64,000 nucleotides of DNA, from assembly GCA_902826615.1 (NCBI GenBank), contig CADEFN010000004.1:248001-312000 (forward strand), read 5' to 3'. Every line of letters begins with the position of its first letter. Positions within the stretch are counted from its first letter, which is position 1. Under the pieces are notes generated by a model. It made no database searches and was not told the DNA's origin. It saw nothing but the letters and a program-made list of their open reading frames with translations. The position numbers were made by a program, and so were the translations under genes. Origin of the DNA: an uncultured Gemmatimonadota bacterium. GTDB lineage: Bacteria > Gemmatimonadota > Gemmatimonadetes > Gemmatimonadales > Gemmatimonadaceae. Positions 51,672 through 60,851 of the stretch are shown here, one piece after another.

Positions 51672-53051
51672 CTACTGCACGGTGATGGTCGCGCTGGCGC
51701 GCTGCCCCTCGGATTCCGCAAAAATAAGAACCGACCCGCGCGCGAGGCCTGTCACCAGGCCCTGCGCCGTCACCCGCGCAATCGTGGCCGACCCAGAAAG
51801 CCACGTTACGACACGACCCGTCAGCGCGACGCCCGCGGCATCAAAAGTCGCCGCCGTCAGCTGGAATGTCTGGCCCCGGTTTATGGAGATGGTGGGCGGA
51901 GTGATAGTCACTCGAGCGACCGGAACGGTGGTCACCGTCACCGTTGCGTTGGCACTTTTTCCCTCGACCGTGGCGGTGATCCGCGCGGTCCCGGGCGCGA
52001 CCCCCGTGACCACCCCAGCAGACGACACCGTGGCAATTGTCGCCGCCGAGGTCACCCACGTCGCGGCGCGTCCTCCGAGCAGCCCCCCCGCACTGTCTGC
52101 CGGAAGGGCGATCAGGGGAGCGGTTTTGGAGACACCGAGAGTGAGTGTGTTAGGCACGACACTCACGGACGCCACGGGCACCGGGATCACTGTCACGGTG
52201 GCCGTGGCCGTTCGGCCCTCGCTCGTCGCCGTGATCGTCGCCGTTCCTGGGGCGAGGCCAATCACCACGCCAGTTGAAGACACCGAAGCAACCGCTGGCG
52301 CCGACGACGTCCAGCTGACAAACCGTCCGGTGATTACGGCATTGTCTGCTGCCCTGAGTGTGGCAGTAAACGGCACCGACCTCCCGACGAGCATTGATGC
52401 CGTCGCTGGAGCAACTGTCACCCGGGCCACAGCCAGTGCCTGCACCGCAATCACGGCGGTCCCCGTCACCCCGGCCACGGTTGCGGTGATACTCACCGTG
52501 CCGGGGGTCATTCCCTGCACCGTCCCCAGCGCATTGACGGACGCCACTGCCGCGCTGCTCGAGCGCCAGGTGATGGGACGCCCCTGGATGGTGTCTCCCG
52601 ACGCTTCGAGGGCGTCCGCCCGCAACGTCAGACTGGCGCCGACGCCAACACCCGACGTGGAGGGCGTCACACGCACCACGGAAATAGGCGGGGCCGCGAC
52701 CGTCACTTGCACCAGCCCCGATTTACCACCGGCACTGGCCGCGATGCGCGCAGTTCCGGGAGCGATGGCCGAAACGATCCCGACCGCCGATACCGTGGCC
52801 ACCGCGGTTGCTGATGACGCCCAATACACACGCCGATCCGGCAGCAGCGCGCCTTCGGTTGAACGCACCTCGGCGTTGACCACACTGTCCTCGCCCTGAG
52901 TGAGCGCGAGGTTCGCCGGCGTCACGTCAACGCGGGCAATGTCTTCGCCAAGCGTGGACTGATCGCTACACGACCCGATAGTCGCGAGCAGCACCAGCAC
53001 GCCGACGCGACGCGTCAGCCACAGTGTGGGGCACTCGAGGCAGCAACTCAT
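51672..53051 (-). CDS. Lipoprotein of five tandem BIG2 domains
   Basis: A 459-residue lipoprotein (lipobox ATIGSC, Cys28) made almost wholly of five consecutive BIG2 Ig-like domains of about 80-85 residues. Each shows the pattern V-x-V-x-P ... ITW/VSW-x-S-S-x-x-A-x-A-S/TVS ... G-x-V-x-G-x-A-P-G-T-A-x-I-T-A. The final domain ends the protein, so there is no anchor or enzymatic domain. Such strings act as surface stalks or adhesins in other bacteria. It lies 71 bases upstream of the amidase on the same strand and may be co-transcribed with it. The start at 53051 is set by the signal peptide; the longer frame to 53903 is antisense shadow of the LAL gene. Confidence 0.85.
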   Translation of the reverse strand: MSCCLECPTLWLTRRVGVLVLLATIGSCSDQSTLGEDIARVDVTPANLALTQGEDSVVNAEVRSTEGALLPDRRVYWASSATAVATVSAVGIVSAIAPGTARIAASAGGKSGLVQVTVAAPPISVVRVTPSTSGVGVGASLTLRADALEASGDTIQGRPITWRSSSAAVASVNALGTVQGMTPGTVSITATVAGVTGTAVIAVQALAVARVTVAPATASMLVGRSVPFTATLRAADNAVITGRFVSWTSSAPAVASVSSTGVVIGLAPGTATITATSEGRTATATVTVIPVPVASVSVVPNTLTLGVSKTAPLIALPADSAGGLLGGRAATWVTSAATIATVSSAGVVTGVAPGTARITATVEGKSANATVTVTTVPVARVTITPPTISINRGQTFQLTAATFDAAGVALTGRVVTWLSGSATIARVTAQGLVTGLARGSVLIFAESEGQRASATITVQ

Positions 53052-53291
53052 GTGAGCATGTGACTTGGCATCCAGTATGTGGACACCCGGCGCTTTCGAC
53101 AACCCGACGCCGATATGGCTGACCCCTTGAGGATGCCACGGCGACTCCCTGTGACGCCGGTCACCCTGACCGACAGAACCCTCGAGACCGTCGATCCCGT
53201 CGCAGGCATTCGACCCCATCTGGGGTAAAGCTGGGCCGCATAGATTGTGCGAGAGGGTGAGAGCAAGGTCTCGTCCATCCGCGGGCCGGAA

Positions 53292-55910
53292 ATGTCGCCA
53301 ATGCCGCAATTGGAGCTGCTCGAACGGGCAAGCGAACTCGCTGCGCTGACCGCTGCGCTCGATGATGCTGCGCAAGGCAGAGGGGCGATCGCGCTCGTCA
53401 GCGGCGAAGCCGGGATTGGCAAGACCGCTCTGGTCACGCACTTCGCTCGGAGGGTCGCCGATCGAGTCCGCACCCTCTGGGGAGCGTGCGACCCGCTCTT
53501 GACTCCGCGTCCCCTCGGTCCGCTTCACGACATCGCGCGCGTATCCAGCCCGCGACTTCTCGCGGCACTTGGCGGCTCCGGAGGGCGCGAGGCGATTTTC
53601 ACGGCCGCGCTTGACGAGCTTCAGCGCGGCAGGGGCGCGACGCTCTGTGTCATCGAAGACGCGCATTGGGCCGACGAAGCGACGCTCGACCTCCTCCGCT
53701 TTCTCGGCCGTCGCATCGCGAACGCCCCCGCGCTCATCGTCGTCACCTACCGCGACGACGAGATGGGGGCCACTCATCCGCTGCGCGCCGCATTGGGGCA
53801 ATTGCCAGGAAGTGCCCTCAGGCGCGTTAGGCCTGCCGCGCTGTCGCCAGTCGCGGTGTCGCGGCTTGCTCGCGATGCGGGACAGCCAGCGACGGGTCTT
53901 CACGAAATCACCGGGGGAAATCCCTTCTTCGTTACCGAGGCACTGGCGGCCGGGGACGGCGACGTGCCCCCAACCGTGCGGGACGCCGTGCTGGCGCGCA
54001 CCGCGCGTCTTTCACTAGACGCTCAATGCATCACGGAGCTCGCATCCGTCGTTCCGATGCGCACCGAGGGGTGGCTCATCGAGGCCTTGCTCGCGCCGCC
54101 GACGGCGGCACTCGACGAATGTGTGTCGGCCGGGATGGTGCGCGACGCCGAAGGCGCGCTGCGCTTCCGGCACGAGCTCGCCCGCCGGGCGGTCGAGGAA
54201 TCGCTGGCACCGGAACGGCGACGGCAGCTCCATGCACGATGCCTTGATACCTTGCGCCGCGTGGGCGCGGCTGACCCGGCGCGCGCGGACGTTGCCCGCC
54301 TGGTCCACCACGCCGAGGGCGCTCGGGACACGGTCGCACTTCGCGAGCTGGCGCCCCTCGCCGCCGAGCAGGCAGCCGCTGCCGGTGCACATCGTGAGGC
54401 GGTGAAGCACTTTGCCCGCGCGCTTCGCCACACCCTCGCGCTTCTGCCGACCGAGCGCGCTCGGCTCCTCGAGCGTCACGCCTACGAGTGCTACCTCACG
54501 GATCAGATGCCGGAGGCGATCGCCGCTCGTCAGGAGGCGCTCCGGCTCTGGCAGACATCAGGCAACGAGGAGCGCGCTGGCGAGACCCTGCGCTGGCTTT
54601 CTCGTTTGCACTGGTTCATCGGCCAGCGCGCCGACGCCGAGCGCTATGGTCGCGAAGCCGTGGACGTGCTCGAGCGAGTACCACGTGGGAGCGCACTGGC
54701 GATGGCCTACAGCAATGTCGCCCAGCTGGCGATGCTCGCCGACGACGTCGAGGGCGCGCTCCTCTGGGGCAACCGGGCGATCGCCATCGCCGAACCGTTA
54801 GGCGACGCGGCCACTCTCTCGCATGCGCTCAACAATGTCGGCACTGCCGAATGCGTTTACGAACGACCGGGCGGGTATGAACGACTGGAACGTGCGCTCG
54901 TCATCGCCCAGGAACACCAGTTGCACGAGCACATTGCACGGGCCTACACAAATCTCGCGTCAACGACGATCCTGTCTCGCAAGCTCGAGGCGGCCCGTCG
55001 CTGGCTCGATGAAGGCATCGCGTTCAGTACCGAGCACGACCTCGACTCGTGGGTGCTCTACATGCGCGCCTGGCGCGCTCACCTGCGCTTTCAAACCGGG
55101 GAGTGGGACTCAGCCGTCGACGATGCATGCGCCGTCGCGGACAATCCGCGCGCCTCGGTCGTGAGCCGCATCCCCGCGCTCGCCGTGCTGGCACGGGTGC
55201 GGAGGCATCGCGAGCACCCGGGCTGGGAGGCGCTGCTCGACGAGACCCGTGCCCTCGCAATCGGTGCTGACGAATTGCAGCGCCGAGAAGCAGCCGCCTG
55301 TGCACGCGCCGAGGCGGCATGGCTCAGCGGCAATGGTGAGCGAACGGGCGACGAGAGCGCGTGGGCCTATCCTCCTGACATGGAGGAGGTCACTCCGTGG
55401 CGCCGGGCGGAGCTCACGCTCTGGCTGTGGCGCGCTGGGCGAGTCGCGGGCCCGCTCGATGGCGTGCCGCACGTCGTGGGACTCTCGCTCGCAGGCGACT
55501 GGCGCGCTGCGGCCGCCGAGTGGAAGAACATCGGGAGTGTGGTCGACCAGGCACATGCTCTCGCGGATGCCGACGAGGAAGACGGGCTGCGCCAGTCGCT
55601 CGCGCTCTTCGAACGAATCGGCTCGCTCGCCGGCGCGACCATGGTCAGGCGGAAGCTTGCGAGCATGGGCGCCCGCGGAGTGCCGCGCGGCTCGCGTCCC
55701 TCGACGCGCGCACACCCGCTTGGACTCACTACGCGACAGCAGCAGATCCTCGGCCTCATCTGCGACGGGCTGAGCAATGCCGAGATCGCTGCGCGGCTCA
55801 ACGTCTCGGAAAAGACCGTCGACCACCACGTCTCGGCCGTGCTGGGCAAACTCGAGGTTCGGTCGCGGGCAAAAGCAGTGGCCAAGGCCGTCGCACTTGG
55901 GCTTCGTTAG
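53292..55910 (+). CDS. LuxR-family LAL transcriptional regulator
   Basis: An 872-residue regulator of the large ATP-binding LuxR (LAL) family. The N-terminal AAA ATPase has Walker A GEAGIGKT (38-45) and Walker B ending in Asp123 (LCVIEDAHWAD). A long helical middle with TPR-like repeats follows (AEQAAAAGAHREAVKHFA, MAYSNVAQLAMLADDV). The C-terminal LuxR helix-turn-helix is LTTRQQQILGLICDGLSNAE then NVSEKTVDHHV. LAL proteins bind ATP and a signal molecule, then activate target genes. The ATG at 53292 is chosen; a GTG at 53247 and an ATG at 53301 are alternatives. It is divergent from the BIG2 lipoprotein, and the DUF4242 gene follows 251 bases downstream, so either side may hold targets. Confidence 0.9.
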   Translation: MSPMPQLELLERASELAALTAALDDAAQGRGAIALVSGEAGIGKTALVTHFARRVADRVRTLWGACDPLLTPRPLGPLHDIARVSSPRLLAALGGSGGREAIFTAALDELQRGRGATLCVIEDAHWADEATLDLLRFLGRRIANAPALIVVTYRDDEMGATHPLRAALGQLPGSALRRVRPAALSPVAVSRLARDAGQPATGLHEITGGNPFFVTEALAAGDGDVPPTVRDAVLARTARLSLDAQCITELASVVPMRTEGWLIEALLAPPTAALDECVSAGMVRDAEGALRFRHELARRAVEESLAPERRRQLHARCLDTLRRVGAADPARADVARLVHHAEGARDTVALRELAPLAAEQAAAAGAHREAVKHFARALRHTLALLPTERARLLERHAYECYLTDQMPEAIAARQEALRLWQTSGNEERAGETLRWLSRLHWFIGQRADAERYGREAVDVLERVPRGSALAMAYSNVAQLAMLADDVEGALLWGNRAIAIAEPLGDAATLSHALNNVGTAECVYERPGGYERLERALVIAQEHQLHEHIARAYTNLASTTILSRKLEAARRWLDEGIAFSTEHDLDSWVLYMRAWRAHLRFQTGEWDSAVDDACAVADNPRASVVSRIPALAVLARVRRHREHPGWEALLDETRALAIGADELQRREAAACARAEAAWLSGNGERTGDESAWAYPPDMEEVTPWRRAELTLWLWRAGRVAGPLDGVPHVVGLSLAGDWRAAAAEWKNIGSVVDQAHALADADEEDGLRQSLALFERIGSLAGATMVRRKLASMGARGVPRGSRPSTRAHPLGLTTRQQQILGLICDGLSNAEIAARLNVSEKTVDHHVSAVLGKLEVRSRAKAVAKAVALGLR

Positions 55911-56161
55911 GTAGCCGCCGGGTCCTGCCCTCGCAGCTGGACGCTCGAGATGGACGCTGGTGCACCGAGCTCGGCCTCCGATCTCGTCGGCGCTTGGCGA
56001 CTCCGAGCGACGAGGCCCGCCCGGCTCGTTTTCGGCTCAGCCCTTCCAAGATAGGGATCGACCGAGGCCAAAATGGGGAACGCTCCCGATGTAGCGACAC
56101 TCCGGCCGAAACATGCTACGCGTGGCCGGAATGGTCCGGCTTTCAAAACAGGACAAGAGAC

Positions 56162-56446
56162 ATGCCTCGCTACATGGTCGAGCGCACCTTCCCGACCGGC
56201 CTTTCCGTGCCGGGTACGAAGGATGGCGCCGAGAGTTGCCTCCGCGTCGTCGAGAAAAACGCTGCCGAGGGAGTTACCTGGATTCACTCGTACGTCACCG
56301 ACGACCGGTCGAAAACATTTTGCATCTACGACGGCCCGAACCCGGAAGCCATTCGGCGAGTCGCGTCAGCAAATGGGCTGCCGGTGGACCGCATCGCATC
56401 AGTGCGCGTACTCGATCCGTACTTCCACGTCGCGGCGGAGGGCTGA
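56162..56446 (+). CDS. DUF4242-family small protein
   Basis: A 94-residue cytoplasmic protein with the DUF4242 pattern: MPRYMVERTFPTGLSVPG, then GVTWIHSYVTDDRSKTFCIY, PNPEAIRRVASANGLPVDRI, and VRVLDPYF. The family includes small ferredoxin-like-fold proteins described as nickel-responsive or nickel-binding; this role is known for some members only. GGACAAGAG lies just before the ATG. The stop is immediately followed by the next gene (GTG 56447 or ATG 56450), so the two are coupled. The stretch 55911-56161 upstream holds no gene. Confidence 0.85.
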   Translation: MPRYMVERTFPTGLSVPGTKDGAESCLRVVEKNAAEGVTWIHSYVTDDRSKTFCIYDGPNPEAIRRVASANGLPVDRIASVRVLDPYFHVAAEG

Positions 56447-56449
56447 GTG

Positions 56450-57019
56450 ATGCGCTACTCACCGATGCGTTACTCAGTGATTGTCGGCGCCGTGCTCGTC
56501 GCCGCCTGCGGCCGCGCTTCGAGCGATCCCGCGGCAACGGAGCCGCTGACGATTGTAAGGGAACACGAACCCGCGTCCCACGTTGCGGTGCAACTGACGC
56601 CCCAGGCTCTTCGCGAGCTCGCGGAGCTCCGAGCGGCAACAAAGCGGTATCGACGTCACGAGGTCGCCCTCGCGGCGGGGTACAAGGACTCGCTCACCGA
56701 GTGCATGACCGATCCCGTCGCCGGAGGCATGGGGCTGCACTATGGGTGGCTGTCCAGGTTCGACGGGACCGTGCAGCACGACGTGCCAGAGATCCTGGTA
56801 TACGAGCCACAGAAGGACGGGTCGCTCCGGTTCGTCGCCGTAGAGTTTGCGATTCCATTTGGGGCCTGGACGAGCGACACAGCGCCGTCGCTCTTTGGGC
56901 AGCCATTCCACAAGAACTTCCGCTTCGGGCTCTGGGTGCTGCACGTGTGGATCGGGCGCGAGAACCCGAACGGGCTGTTCATGGACTACAACCCGAAGGT
57001 GGGTTGCCCGAGGAAGTAA
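56450..57019 (+). CDS. Small conserved lipoprotein, function unknown
   Basis: A 189-residue lipoprotein (lipobox VLVAAC, Cys20) with the sequence GGMGLHYGW, then PEILVYEPQKDGSLRFVAVE, SLFGQPFHKNF, LHVWIGRENPNGLF and YNPKVGC. These blocks recur in a group of conserved exported hypotheticals, but I know no function. Several His, a Cys pair (C89-like ECMTDP and C186-like VGCP) and aromatic residues could make a metal or heme pocket; this is inference only. The GTG three bases earlier is an alternative start. It is coupled to the DUF4242 gene, so the two products may act in one process. Confidence 0.7.
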   Translation: MRYSPMRYSVIVGAVLVAACGRASSDPAATEPLTIVREHEPASHVAVQLTPQALRELAELRAATKRYRRHEVALAAGYKDSLTECMTDPVAGGMGLHYGWLSRFDGTVQHDVPEILVYEPQKDGSLRFVAVEFAIPFGAWTSDTAPSLFGQPFHKNFRFGLWVLHVWIGRENPNGLFMDYNPKVGCPRK

Positions 57020-57030
57020 CCGCCGTCAGG

Positions 57031-57066
57031 CCGACTCGTCATGCGTGGCGCTGCCTGACGAGTCGG
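57031..57066 (+). terminator. Hairpin after DUF4242 unit
   Basis: CCGACTCGTCA at 57031-57041 and TGACGAGTCGG at 57056-57066 form a perfect 11-bp stem with a 14-nt loop, 11 bases past the stop. CGTCAGG at 57024-57030 and CCTGACG at 57054-57060 are also exact complements, so an alternative shorter pairing is possible. No T-run follows. Confidence 0.6.
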
Positions 57067-57162
57067 AGGTTCCCCTCGAACGCGCCGAGTCGATGGTTGC
57101 CTGTCACGACCATCGCTCCGCGGCCCGCCACGAGCTCGCCGATGGGTCGTGGCAACGAGCCC

Positions 57163-57909
57163 TTACCCGACCAGTTCCCCGAGCAGGTCTTGCCGCTCTC
57201 CAGAACGCAGATCGGTCACGACCAGGCGGCGATTTGCGTTGTACGACCCCATGTCATGATCCCCATTGATGAGCACGGCGCCCATCACGATGAGATACCG
57301 CGCTTTGAAGGCGGTTCGGGCGGTGAGCAGGTCGATGCGGTCCGCGATGGCCTCCTGGATGACCTCGGTAGCTTCCTTGAGTGGTACGGCCGCCGTCAAC
57401 ACGCGCTCCCGCTGCCGGAGCAGGACTTGCTCGAGAACATTCTGCTGGTAGTCCAGCGCCGAGATGTCATCAGGAATCACGAGCCCGCCCTGGAGCTTGG
57501 CGAGGGCAGCACGGCAGGCCCCGCAACATCCGCTGCGGTTGTTCTGTCCCGGCCGCAGGATGGCGCCTAACGACCCATCCTTGCCCACCCCGATGTGCGG
57601 CGCATGATAGATGAACACGGCCCCATCGTCGGGCACATGCGCGGCAAACGCCCCCATGCCGGTGAGTCCGGCAAAGGGAAAGCCGTCCAGTCCCCCGAGT
57701 TTGAAGGGTCCGACCATCTCGAAGGCCCGGCGCGGATACTCCACGCTGTTCACGTCGTCGCTGCACACGCTATCACCCAGCACCACCTGGCTGGGGGTGA
57801 GCCCGAAGTGGCGATCGATGATGCCGAAGAACCGATCCACCGACTCGACGGTGGTCTGGGCGTCGGGGTAGTGACGGCGGACAACAGGAAGAAAGTCAGC
57901 GGCGGCCAT
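57163..57909 (-). CDS. LCIB-type (theta/beta) carbonic anhydrase-like protein
   Basis: A 248-residue cytoplasmic protein with the Cys-Gly-His-rich region that defines the LCIB/LCIC family: LGDSVCSDDVN (Cys49), GPFKLGGLDGFPFAGLTGMG (67-86), then FAAHVPDDG, the HAPHIGVGKDGSLG region (His102, His105), and SGCCGAC (Cys128, 129, 132). Known members bind zinc via Cys and His residues, and some interconvert CO2 and bicarbonate; Cys49, His105 and Cys128/129 are the likely ligands here. Its ATG lies 3 bases after the bestrophin stop, with no ribosome site of its own, so translation is coupled. It is the last gene of a four-gene unit. Activity is inferred from family, not shown. Confidence 0.82.
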   Translation of the reverse strand: MAAADFLPVVRRHYPDAQTTVESVDRFFGIIDRHFGLTPSQVVLGDSVCSDDVNSVEYPRRAFEMVGPFKLGGLDGFPFAGLTGMGAFAAHVPDDGAVFIYHAPHIGVGKDGSLGAILRPGQNNRSGCCGACRAALAKLQGGLVIPDDISALDYQQNVLEQVLLRQRERVLTAAVPLKEATEVIQEAIADRIDLLTARTAFKARYLIVMGAVLINGDHDMGSYNANRRLVVTDLRSGERQDLLGELVG

Positions 57910-57912
57910 GGG

Positions 57913-58926
57913 TTACATCAGGATATTGTTCACCGGCGCGAGGGGTGGCGGGATCTCCCGTTCACCCAGCAACTCGCGCAGGTCGATCTCGATGGTGCGA
58001 CTCAGCGCGGTGATCGGCACATCGTTGGGGCTCCCCTCGAAAGGGTTTTCCGTGGCGTCTCCGATGCGCTCCATGGCGTTGAAGACCCAGCCCACCAGAA
58101 AGCTGAACGGAATGCTCAGCCAGACGAACCCTGGGCCAAGTTTGCCGAACTCCTGCAACAAACCGAAGGGCACCAGCCAGACAAACAGCCGAATGAAGAA
58201 GAGGTTGATCGTGGCGAACTGGCGCGGGTACGGAAAATTCTTGATGCGCTCACATCGGCCCTGCGCATCGAGCAGGTCGGTCAACCGCTGCGCCAGCGCC
58301 ACGTGACGGTTGGGTTCCAGCACACCACGCGCGGCCAGCTCTGCCAGGGTCCGCGACTGCAGGGCAATCAGGTGGGTGGCGCGATTGCTCCCACGCATCA
58401 CCTCCGCGTGGTCAGCGGGCGCGAGCAGGGGGAGCAGCGCCGCCCCAATGTCACCGCCGGCTTCGGGTACGTCGTACGACCGTTGCTGATACTCCCGGCT
58501 CATCGGGGACGACATGCGCTCCCAGGTTCGTGGCTGGCGGAGCTGGAATCGCAGCGCGGTCAGCCACGCAATGTGGCGGTGAATCAGGAGGGCATGCGCC
58601 GCGCGGGCCTGCGGCTCCGTCAGCGGATGCACTGGCTGCACGAAGTCGATCACCTGCATGGCCCACGAGCGGCTGGCATTCACAATGCTCCCCCAGATCT
58701 GCCGAGCCTCCCACGCTCGCGCGTAGGTCGCATTGTTCTTGAACCCCACGATAAAGGCCGACGCAGTTCCGATCAGCGCCACAGGCACCCACGGAACAAC
58801 GATCCAGCGAATGTGGAGCACTTCGTACAGGATCACCGGAACGGTGGCCACCACGAAGAGCCACAACGTGTCCCGTCGTGTCCAGTAGAGGTAGTCCCGC
58901 AGACGATATCGAAGTCCGGTGTGCAC
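57913..58926 (-). CDS. Bestrophin-family anion channel
   Basis: A 337-residue membrane protein of the bacterial bestrophin (UPF0187) family. Two early transmembrane helices (about 21-38 and 42-62) lead into FKNNATYARAWEARQIWG (62-79) and IVNASRSWA, the family signature. Two more helices lie at about 241-295 (ATINLFFIRLFVWLVPFG, FLVGWVFNAMERIG), followed by ENPFEGSPNDVPI, a conserved acidic motif. Members form pentameric channels for anions or cations; in algae, bestrophin-like proteins are linked to bicarbonate. The start is a GTG at 58926. It begins 20 bases after the CocE stop and is followed at 3 bases by the LCIB-type gene. Which ion it carries cannot be read from sequence. Confidence 0.9.
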   Translation of the reverse strand: MHTGLRYRLRDYLYWTRRDTLWLFVVATVPVILYEVLHIRWIVVPWVPVALIGTASAFIVGFKNNATYARAWEARQIWGSIVNASRSWAMQVIDFVQPVHPLTEPQARAAHALLIHRHIAWLTALRFQLRQPRTWERMSSPMSREYQQRSYDVPEAGGDIGAALLPLLAPADHAEVMRGSNRATHLIALQSRTLAELAARGVLEPNRHVALAQRLTDLLDAQGRCERIKNFPYPRQFATINLFFIRLFVWLVPFGLLQEFGKLGPGFVWLSIPFSFLVGWVFNAMERIGDATENPFEGSPNDVPITALSRTIEIDLRELLGEREIPPPLAPVNNILM

Positions 58927-58946
58927 GAGAATGGTTGCGAAACGGC

Positions 58947-60851
58947 CTAACGAGGCACCACAGGCAGCACGACAAATGACGGGCGCGCGGCGTTGTGATG
59001 GATGGTGTTGTCCACTGACACCAAACGCCGATGCAGGCCAAGTGGTTCACCAGTCCCCGGATTCACGTCGAACCGGGGGAAGTTGCTGCTGGAAATATCG
59101 AGCCGGATGCGATGCCCCTTCTTGAACACATTGGCTGTCGGAAACGGCCTCACCACGACCGGATACACCACGCCCGGCGTGGCCAGACTCCGCGTCGCAC
59201 GGTCGTCGCGATAACTGAGCCGCTGAATGGCGTCGGTAATGTTGAGATCGAAACCCGAGGGGAAGTTGGCGCTGGGCGGGTACACGTCCACGAGCTTGGC
59301 CGTGAAATCGGTGTCGCGACCCGTCGTGCTCACGTGCAGCTGAACCTCGACCGGCCCGATCAGCACCACGTCCTCCTCGAGCGGCGCGGTTTCGAATACG
59401 AGAACATCGGAACGCGACTTGAGGGGAAGAAAGGGCGGGCGTGACCCGGCAAAGTCGGAGCGTTCGCGCTGATGATACGCCCCATCCTTGACCCGATTGG
59501 AAACATTGCCGCCGAGCGTCGGTACGGGGTGCGCCGGGTCGAAGGTGAAGGTGGTACCTCCCTCCTGTGCGCGAGGCTGCTCGGTGGACAGCAGGCCACC
59601 CGACCGAAGGTAGAACCTGGTGGGCCGGGTTCCGGTAAGCGGCCACGTCGTTCCTTCACGCCAGGTACCGCCATGTTGCAGACGTCCATTGGCGTCCTTT
59701 GTCCCCGGTCCTCCTCCCATCACAAACACCCGTACTGCCGGCTCGCTGGCCACGCCGTTAGGCATGCCACGCAGGAAGTGGTCGAACCAGCGGAGGTGGA
59801 AGGTGGTTTCGAAGCCCGCAATGGCGGCCTCCCGGCCGAAGTCCACCTCGCCCGCCCAGGTGCGCCCGTTGCCGCCATGCACCCAGGGGCCAATGGTCAT
59901 TCGTACCGGCCCTCGACGACCTGCACTCAACCCCAGGAAGTTGTCGACGGTTCCGCGGAGAAAAATGTCGTACCACCCGCCCAGGTGCAGCATGGGCACG
60001 TCAGCTGTCCTTGCGTAGTGCTTCTTCCAGTTCAGCGAGATCTTGTCCCAGTACGCGCCGGCGTCGCCGTTGACCCACTCATCCAGCAGGTAGGCCTCGT
60101 ACTCGGGCGCCGCGCTCAGCGGATTCTGGCCGCGGCGCAACGGGACGCGATCGTACCACTCCTCCACCTTCTCGCGTTCGAGGAGCGCACGCACCACCGA
60201 GTCGGGGGTTTCCCGCCGCGCCTCCTGCCAGGCCCACGTCATCTCGCGTCCCATCTCGAAGGCACCACCCTGACGCACCGCATGATCGCGGGCGTCGGCC
60301 ATGCCGCCCTGGTTCACGATCATCGCCGCGAGGTGCGGTGGGCGCAGCTTGGCAGCATCGGCCTGCGAATGCGCGGCGTACGACCGCCCCCAGGTACCAA
60401 CCTTCCCGCTGCAGAATGGTTGGGTCCCGAGCCACTCGATGGCATCGTAGCCGTCCGGGGCATCGAGCACCGAGTACTTGGTGAAGACCCCTTCGCTGCG
60501 ATAGCGGCCGCGAATGTTCTGCAGTGCCACCACGTACCCCTGTGAAGCAAAGAAGCGCGCCTGCATCACGATTTCGTCGCCGCGAATTTCGTAGGGGGTT
60601 CGGAGCAGCAGCGCGGGAAAGGCCGAATCGATGGGCACGGTGCCACGGGCCGGACGGTAGAGCTCAGTGGAGAGCTTCACCCCATCGCGCATGGGCACCA
60701 TCACACCATCCTGCCGGACCACGTCAAAGGGTGCCGGCTGCGCGTCGAGCAACGGCCCACGTACCAGGGACAGGAGTCCCAGCAGCAGCGCACTACGGCA
60801 GCGCACGTTCCACCGCCAGCGCCACCCGCTCCACAATCCGGTCAATCTCAT
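58947..60851 (-). CDS. CocE/NonD-family serine hydrolase (secreted)
   Basis: A 634-residue hydrolase with a signal peptide ending near LLDAQ. The N-terminal alpha/beta domain has the nucleophile Ser157 in GTWGRSYAA, oxyanion-region NIRGRYRSEG, the Asp in GGWYDIFLRG and the His in GPWVHGG. The C-terminal jelly-roll fits X-Pro dipeptidyl-peptidase/CocE proteins (ISSSNFPRFDVNPGTGEP). Members cleave esters, acyl groups or X-Pro peptides, here in the periplasm or outside. The ATG at 60851 keeps the signal peptide but makes a 59-base overlap with the end of the aminotransferase gene. A paralogue starts divergently at 62247. Confidence 0.9.
   Translation of the reverse strand: MRLTGLWSGWRWRWNVRCRSALLLGLLSLVRGPLLDAQPAPFDVVRQDGVMVPMRDGVKLSTELYRPARGTVPIDSAFPALLLRTPYEIRGDEIVMQARFFASQGYVVALQNIRGRYRSEGVFTKYSVLDAPDGYDAIEWLGTQPFCSGKVGTWGRSYAAHSQADAAKLRPPHLAAMIVNQGGMADARDHAVRQGGAFEMGREMTWAWQEARRETPDSVVRALLEREKVEEWYDRVPLRRGQNPLSAAPEYEAYLLDEWVNGDAGAYWDKISLNWKKHYARTADVPMLHLGGWYDIFLRGTVDNFLGLSAGRRGPVRMTIGPWVHGGNGRTWAGEVDFGREAAIAGFETTFHLRWFDHFLRGMPNGVASEPAVRVFVMGGGPGTKDANGRLQHGGTWREGTTWPLTGTRPTRFYLRSGGLLSTEQPRAQEGGTTFTFDPAHPVPTLGGNVSNRVKDGAYHQRERSDFAGSRPPFLPLKSRSDVLVFETAPLEEDVVLIGPVEVQLHVSTTGRDTDFTAKLVDVYPPSANFPSGFDLNITDAIQRLSYRDDRATRSLATPGVVYPVVVRPFPTANVFKKGHRIRLDISSSNFPRFDVNPGTGEPLGLHRRLVSVDNTIHHNAARPSFVVLPVVPR

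Follow-up and report, generated by a model that had tools for sequence, protein, structure and literature searches.

In Chlamydomonas, LCIB/C reportedly makes physical contact with BST1 and BST3, and CO2 is proposed to be recaptured as HCO3- in two steps (PMC6708349). The algal partnership poses two questions: does LCIB act as an enzyme or as a regulator, and what does its binding to bestrophin bring about? In algae, both proteins are entangled with photosynthesis. Here we describe a bestrophin-LCIB gene pair in a 64,000-nucleotide stretch of DNA from an uncultured Gemmatimonadota bacterium (the window). The pair joins the same two protein families as the Chlamydomonas system of LCIB/LCIC and the thylakoid bestrophins BST1-3, but it is a bacterial two-gene unit, found where RuBisCO, pyrenoid and thylakoid are all lacking. 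Such a minimal version makes both questions approachable in a simple cell.

Other described systems resemble the pair in part. The diatom protein PtLCIB4 (5b5y) and 6kfs share with the bacterial LCIB 26-29% identity, the fold, the Cys-His-Cys set and the Asp/Arg residues, but neither record contains a channel partner. KpBest of Klebsiella has the family and fold of the window bestrophin but conducts Na+ and has IIF at its neck, whereas the paired clade has TFF. DAB2/MpsAB also combine a membrane protein and a carbonic anhydrase (CA)-like subunit in one small system (PMC13144422), although their membrane partner is unrelated to bestrophin. Nor is the LCIB protein a DabA: it matches PF18599 and not the DabA family PF10070, and DabA is encoded elsewhere in the window genome. 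In algae the two families are already known as partners, but we found neither a bacterial bestrophin-LCIB operon nor its lateral spread or RuBisCO-free occurrence described in the open literature searched.

The two open reading frames, their coordinates and their three-base TAA-CCC-ATG spacing (Table 1) are as described in an earlier account of this DNA, hereafter the sequence-only reading. That account had also argued that the genes are translationally coupled, given this spacing and the lack of a ribosome-binding site for the second. There is indeed no Shine-Dalgarno sequence before the LCIB ATG in the window sequence, but this is weak evidence of coupling because the bestrophin GTG is without one there too. 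Coupling of the pair, which is probable, is better supported by the junctions in related loci, where the genes overlap by 4 nt as ATGA (L002, L004, L005) or, in the remainder, either possibly overlap as GTGA or are spaced by 2 to ~45 nt, with short spacing in most. A promoter and terminator scan returned nothing exceeding chance. The S15/CocE family, to which the neighbouring hydrolase belongs, has ~13 matches in the window genome; a tie of the pair to this particular upstream gene was rejected, as S15 is not kept beside the pair in other loci.

Table 1. Positions in the window of the gene pair, its predicted functional residues and associated features
Feature	Position	Strand	Basis or remark
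Bestrophin gene (337 aa, starts with GTG), upstream member of pair	57913..58926	-	PF25539, 168.6 bits; homologues share the same first residue
LCIB/theta-type carbonic anhydrase gene, 248 aa	57163..57909	-	PF18599, 204.6 bits; phmmer to 6kfs and 5b5y; fold match
Junction TAA CCC ATG, 3 nt between genes	57907..57915	-	Sequence; L002, L004 and L005 have an ATGA overlap here
Presumed zinc ligand Cys49, codon	57763..57765	-	Invariant, 40/40 LCIB rows
Asp51 (presumed Asp-Arg dyad), codon	57757..57759	-	Invariant, 40/40
Presumed zinc ligand His91, codon	57637..57639	-	Invariant, 40/40; aligned with H88 of PtLCIB4
Arg119 (presumed Asp-Arg dyad), codon	57553..57555	-	Invariant, 40/40
Presumed zinc ligand Cys129, codon	57523..57525	-	Invariant, 40/40
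Neck residues T54, F58, F62 (TFF)	58741..58767	-	Alignment
S15/CocE-type hydrolase, 20 bp upstream of bestrophin	58947-60851	-	Family match
Block missing from same-genus genome G257	52896..59006	.	blastn of window vs L096; holds LuxR-type regulator, small ORFs and the pair

We assessed the downstream protein by family, alignment and structure model. Its sole Pfam match is PF18599 (LCIB_C_CA; E=1.7e-60), with a score far exceeding the curated cut-off of 25 bits. A phmmer search of solved structures returned 6kfs (3e-26) and PtLCIB4 (5b5y, 1e-22), along with the structures of LCIB and LCIC from Chlamydomonas. Of the aligned sequences in which the five tabulated residues are invariant, 37 are bacterial LCIB proteins and three come from the PDB. 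We take C49, H91 and C129 to be the Cys-His-Cys zinc ligands, and D51 and R119 the Asp-Arg dyad, as in beta-like carbonic anhydrase. The AlphaFold model (pLDDT 81.9, falling below 50 for residues 70-87, a loop that stands near the active site) matches the fold of 5b5y (E=2e-13), 6kfs (TM 0.80; range over matches 0.74-0.80) and the LCIB/LCIC structures, and matches classical beta-CAs weakly. Thus, two checks named in the sequence-only reading come out in its favour: the protein is a member of the LCIB family, and its zinc ligands are intact in a model that agrees with the LCIB crystal structures.

Conservation of the active site also bears on whether the protein is an enzyme. In Chlamydomonas, a part in the CCM is indicated for LCIB/LCIC although their activity is unconfirmed (PMC10096703), they bind bestrophins (PMC6708349), and genomes with the pair already contain other CAs. 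All this would suit an LCIB that serves as a sensor subunit, with weak catalysis or none, and gates the bestrophin in response to CO2/HCO3-. We regard such a role as quite improbable, given that all zinc and dyad residues are retained and that S50 aligns with S47 of PtLCIB4, so that Ser occupies this position in both proteins; these features favour a working enzyme. Both H88 and S47 of PtLCIB4 have been mutated in solved structures (H88A is 5b5z).

The upstream protein matches PF25539 (E=2.7e-49), and KpBest was returned for it by the sequence search of solved structures. Its structure model, of moderate confidence (mean pLDDT 69.7), matches KpBest structures at E ~2e-9. The TFF neck is common to the paired bestrophins and their nearest unpaired relatives, with Thr at the first position clade-wide and both Phe kept; elsewhere the neck has three hydrophobic residues, IIF in KpBest and IFF in animal bestrophins (PMC8496536). 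The bestrophin tail carries a conserved motif, P-x-N-x-I-L-M. KpBest is a Na+ channel in which the I66F substitution shifts selectivity from Na+ towards Cl- (PMC8496536). Because this change moves KpBest towards chloride, the TFF neck leans towards anion conduction by the paired bestrophins.

We extended the analysis to the arrangement of the two genes in other genomes. When ~85,000 species genomes were scanned, close relatives turned up at seven loci, which belong to Bacteroidota, Acidobacteriota and Gemmatimonadota, and in all seven the bestrophin is directly upstream on the same strand. Family searches added two paired Bacteroidota (G596 and G581), giving, with the window, ten paired loci in three phyla. 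As L002, L004 and L005 are near-copies, these represent about eight independent loci, the window counted. The adjacency therefore far exceeds chance and, a point that the sequence-only reading had left to a count across genomes, it is not restricted to one. There are departures from the arrangement: G494 keeps both genes but separated, and G510 has an LCIB without a bestrophin of the paired clade.

A looser relationship would be expected if the bestrophin were a channel for chloride or other anions in osmotic or ion balance, with LCIB a loosely related passenger. Chloride export has been linked to a bacterial bestrophin homologue (PMC4271186), and some members of the TFF clade lie beside cation channels or exchangers with no LCIB (L070, L081). 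However, the same gene order with near-zero spacing at ten loci in three phyla would not be expected of a passenger, and we think this explanation improbable.

The pair is rare. LCIB is present in 1/298 Gemmatimonadota, 1/297 Acidobacteriota and 35/395 Bacteroidota, and the pair in 1/298, 1/297 and 3/395, respectively. In the LCIB tree, all ten paired proteins fall in one 12-member clade (support 99/98), of which two members are unpaired; the other 25 LCIB genes, which lie outside this clade, all lack the pairing. A five-locus subgroup (the window, L002, L003, L004 and L007) recurs in the LCIB and bestrophin trees and mixes the three phyla. Because the subgroup matches in both trees across phyla, transfer as a unit is favoured, and the trees speak for lateral spread of the pair in this form. 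Stand-alone LCIB genes are common in Bacteroidota (L014-L038), mostly without a Bestrophin_2 gene anywhere in the genome, and the papers searched contain no description of their role.

Comparison with genomes of the same genus points to the history of the window locus. In G257, blastn matches to the window at 51.3-52.9 kb and 59.0-60.7 kb are only ~310 bp apart, and neither LCIB nor bestrophin was found in that genome; nor was the pair found in the other same-genus genomes searched. With the flanks nearly joined and both genes missing, a block of ~6 kb was either gained here or lost there. We prefer gain because the pair is rare, and the window pair was thus likely acquired by transfer. The missing block also contains a large AAA_16/LuxR-type regulator (887 aa; 53247-55910, + strand), which may have arrived together with the pair. 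One edge of the block is the upstream end of a gene for an Ig-like tandem-repeat protein (51672-52991, - strand). Carriage by a mobile element was considered and rejected: tblastn against plasmids and phages gave no match, and a pattern scan of IMG/VR was likewise negative.

The absence of the pair from the other same-genus genomes searched could alternatively reflect a contaminant or an assembly artefact. This is hardly credible, as the pair sits inside a 584-kb contig with G+C and GC3 equal to those of its neighbours, and independent assemblies hold the same pair.

The genes that accompany the pair differ between loci. In L003, the end of a Na+/H+ exchanger gene is followed after 5 nt by the bestrophin, and another exchanger gene lies downstream, facing the pair. 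A K+ channel gene precedes the bestrophin in G581 and G596, with the filter TSIGFGD in L050 and TSIGYGD in L049. These two K+ channel genes (Ion_trans_2; L049 6804-7376 and L050 3250-3906) are 58% identical to each other, and the L049 copy stops early, past the filter. In L081, a Na+/H+ exchanger follows an unpaired bestrophin of the same clade. In L070 (1535-3171), where LCIB is absent, a TMEM175-type K+ channel gene overlaps the start of a same-clade bestrophin (TAATG), making this a possible operon of a cation channel and an anion channel. No cation transporter adjoins the pair at the window locus.

Carbon fixation does not explain the pair. No PF00016 match to RuBisCO was found in any of the 12 genomes searched; therefore the pair is not a CO2-fixation aid and does not serve RuBisCO in the algal manner. 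The window genome is among these RuBisCO-free genomes, in keeping with the heterotrophic setting that the sequence-only reading had assumed.

At about even confidence, we propose that the pair is a horizontally mobile two-gene bicarbonate transport metabolon. The LCIB protein, as a soluble beta/theta-type zinc carbonic anhydrase, would convert CO2 and HCO3- into each other where the bestrophin opens to the cytoplasm, and the bestrophin pentamer would conduct anions, HCO3- included. Under an inside-negative membrane potential, HCO3- would exit through the channel and CO2 would diffuse back in, such that one cycle amounts to the uptake of a proton (acid loading). The cell would be kept from excess cytoplasmic alkalinity and could vent respired CO2 as bicarbonate, and in related loci the neighbouring K+ channel or Na+/H+ exchanger would balance charge or protons. 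For this scheme we infer the physical contact between the two proteins, the HCO3- permeability, the enzyme activity and the direction of flux. Several observations count against it. Beta-CA genes are present in all ten paired genomes (as partial matches only in two), so a further bulk CA would be unneeded; the genes are apart in G494, and in G510 LCIB occurs without a bestrophin of the paired clade; the activity of LCIB from Chlamydomonas is itself unconfirmed (PMC10096703); the loop 70-87 is modelled with low confidence; and the window locus is without an adjoining cation transporter.

The sequence-only reading, which made no mention of physical contact between the algal proteins, had suggested that the module serves either pH or anaplerotic carbon. 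The Na+/H+ exchanger and K+ channel neighbours of related loci point to a probable role in pH or ion homeostasis, and the acid-loading route fits these companions, which move Na+, H+ or K+. In the anaplerotic alternative, the channel would admit HCO3- and LCIB would make CO2 or trap CO2 as HCO3-, feeding carboxylases. Carboxylations in heterotrophs require inorganic carbon, which MpsAB/CA systems provide (PMC8552792), and a urea transporter gene is convergent to the pair in L002. We nevertheless judge bicarbonate supply unlikely because an inside-negative potential opposes uptake through a passive anion channel, which would instead let bicarbonate escape, and because two beta-CAs and a further inorganic-carbon cluster are already present in the window genome. 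That cluster, separate from the pair, has SulP, beta-CA, a second SulP and DabA in a row (L076 3772-10853; G000 contig C3, ~45.8-52.9 kb).

Returning to the acid-loading metabolon, we advance a broader interpretation more tentatively, at somewhat less than even confidence: that a laterally spread bestrophin and LCIB-type metabolon, joined in some cases by a K+ channel or a Na+/H+ exchanger, parallels or predates the algal CO2-recapture partnership and serves pH homeostasis without carbon fixation. The evidence suggests a small bicarbonate-handling unit that moves jointly between unrelated non-photosynthetic bacteria, and hence an LCIB-bestrophin partnership independent of photosynthesis. As a compact bicarbonate module, the pair could also be of use in engineering.

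We also considered whether LCIB substitutes for beta-CA, and rejected this: among 395 Bacteroidota, 22/35 genomes with LCIB and ~219/360 without it have a beta-CA.
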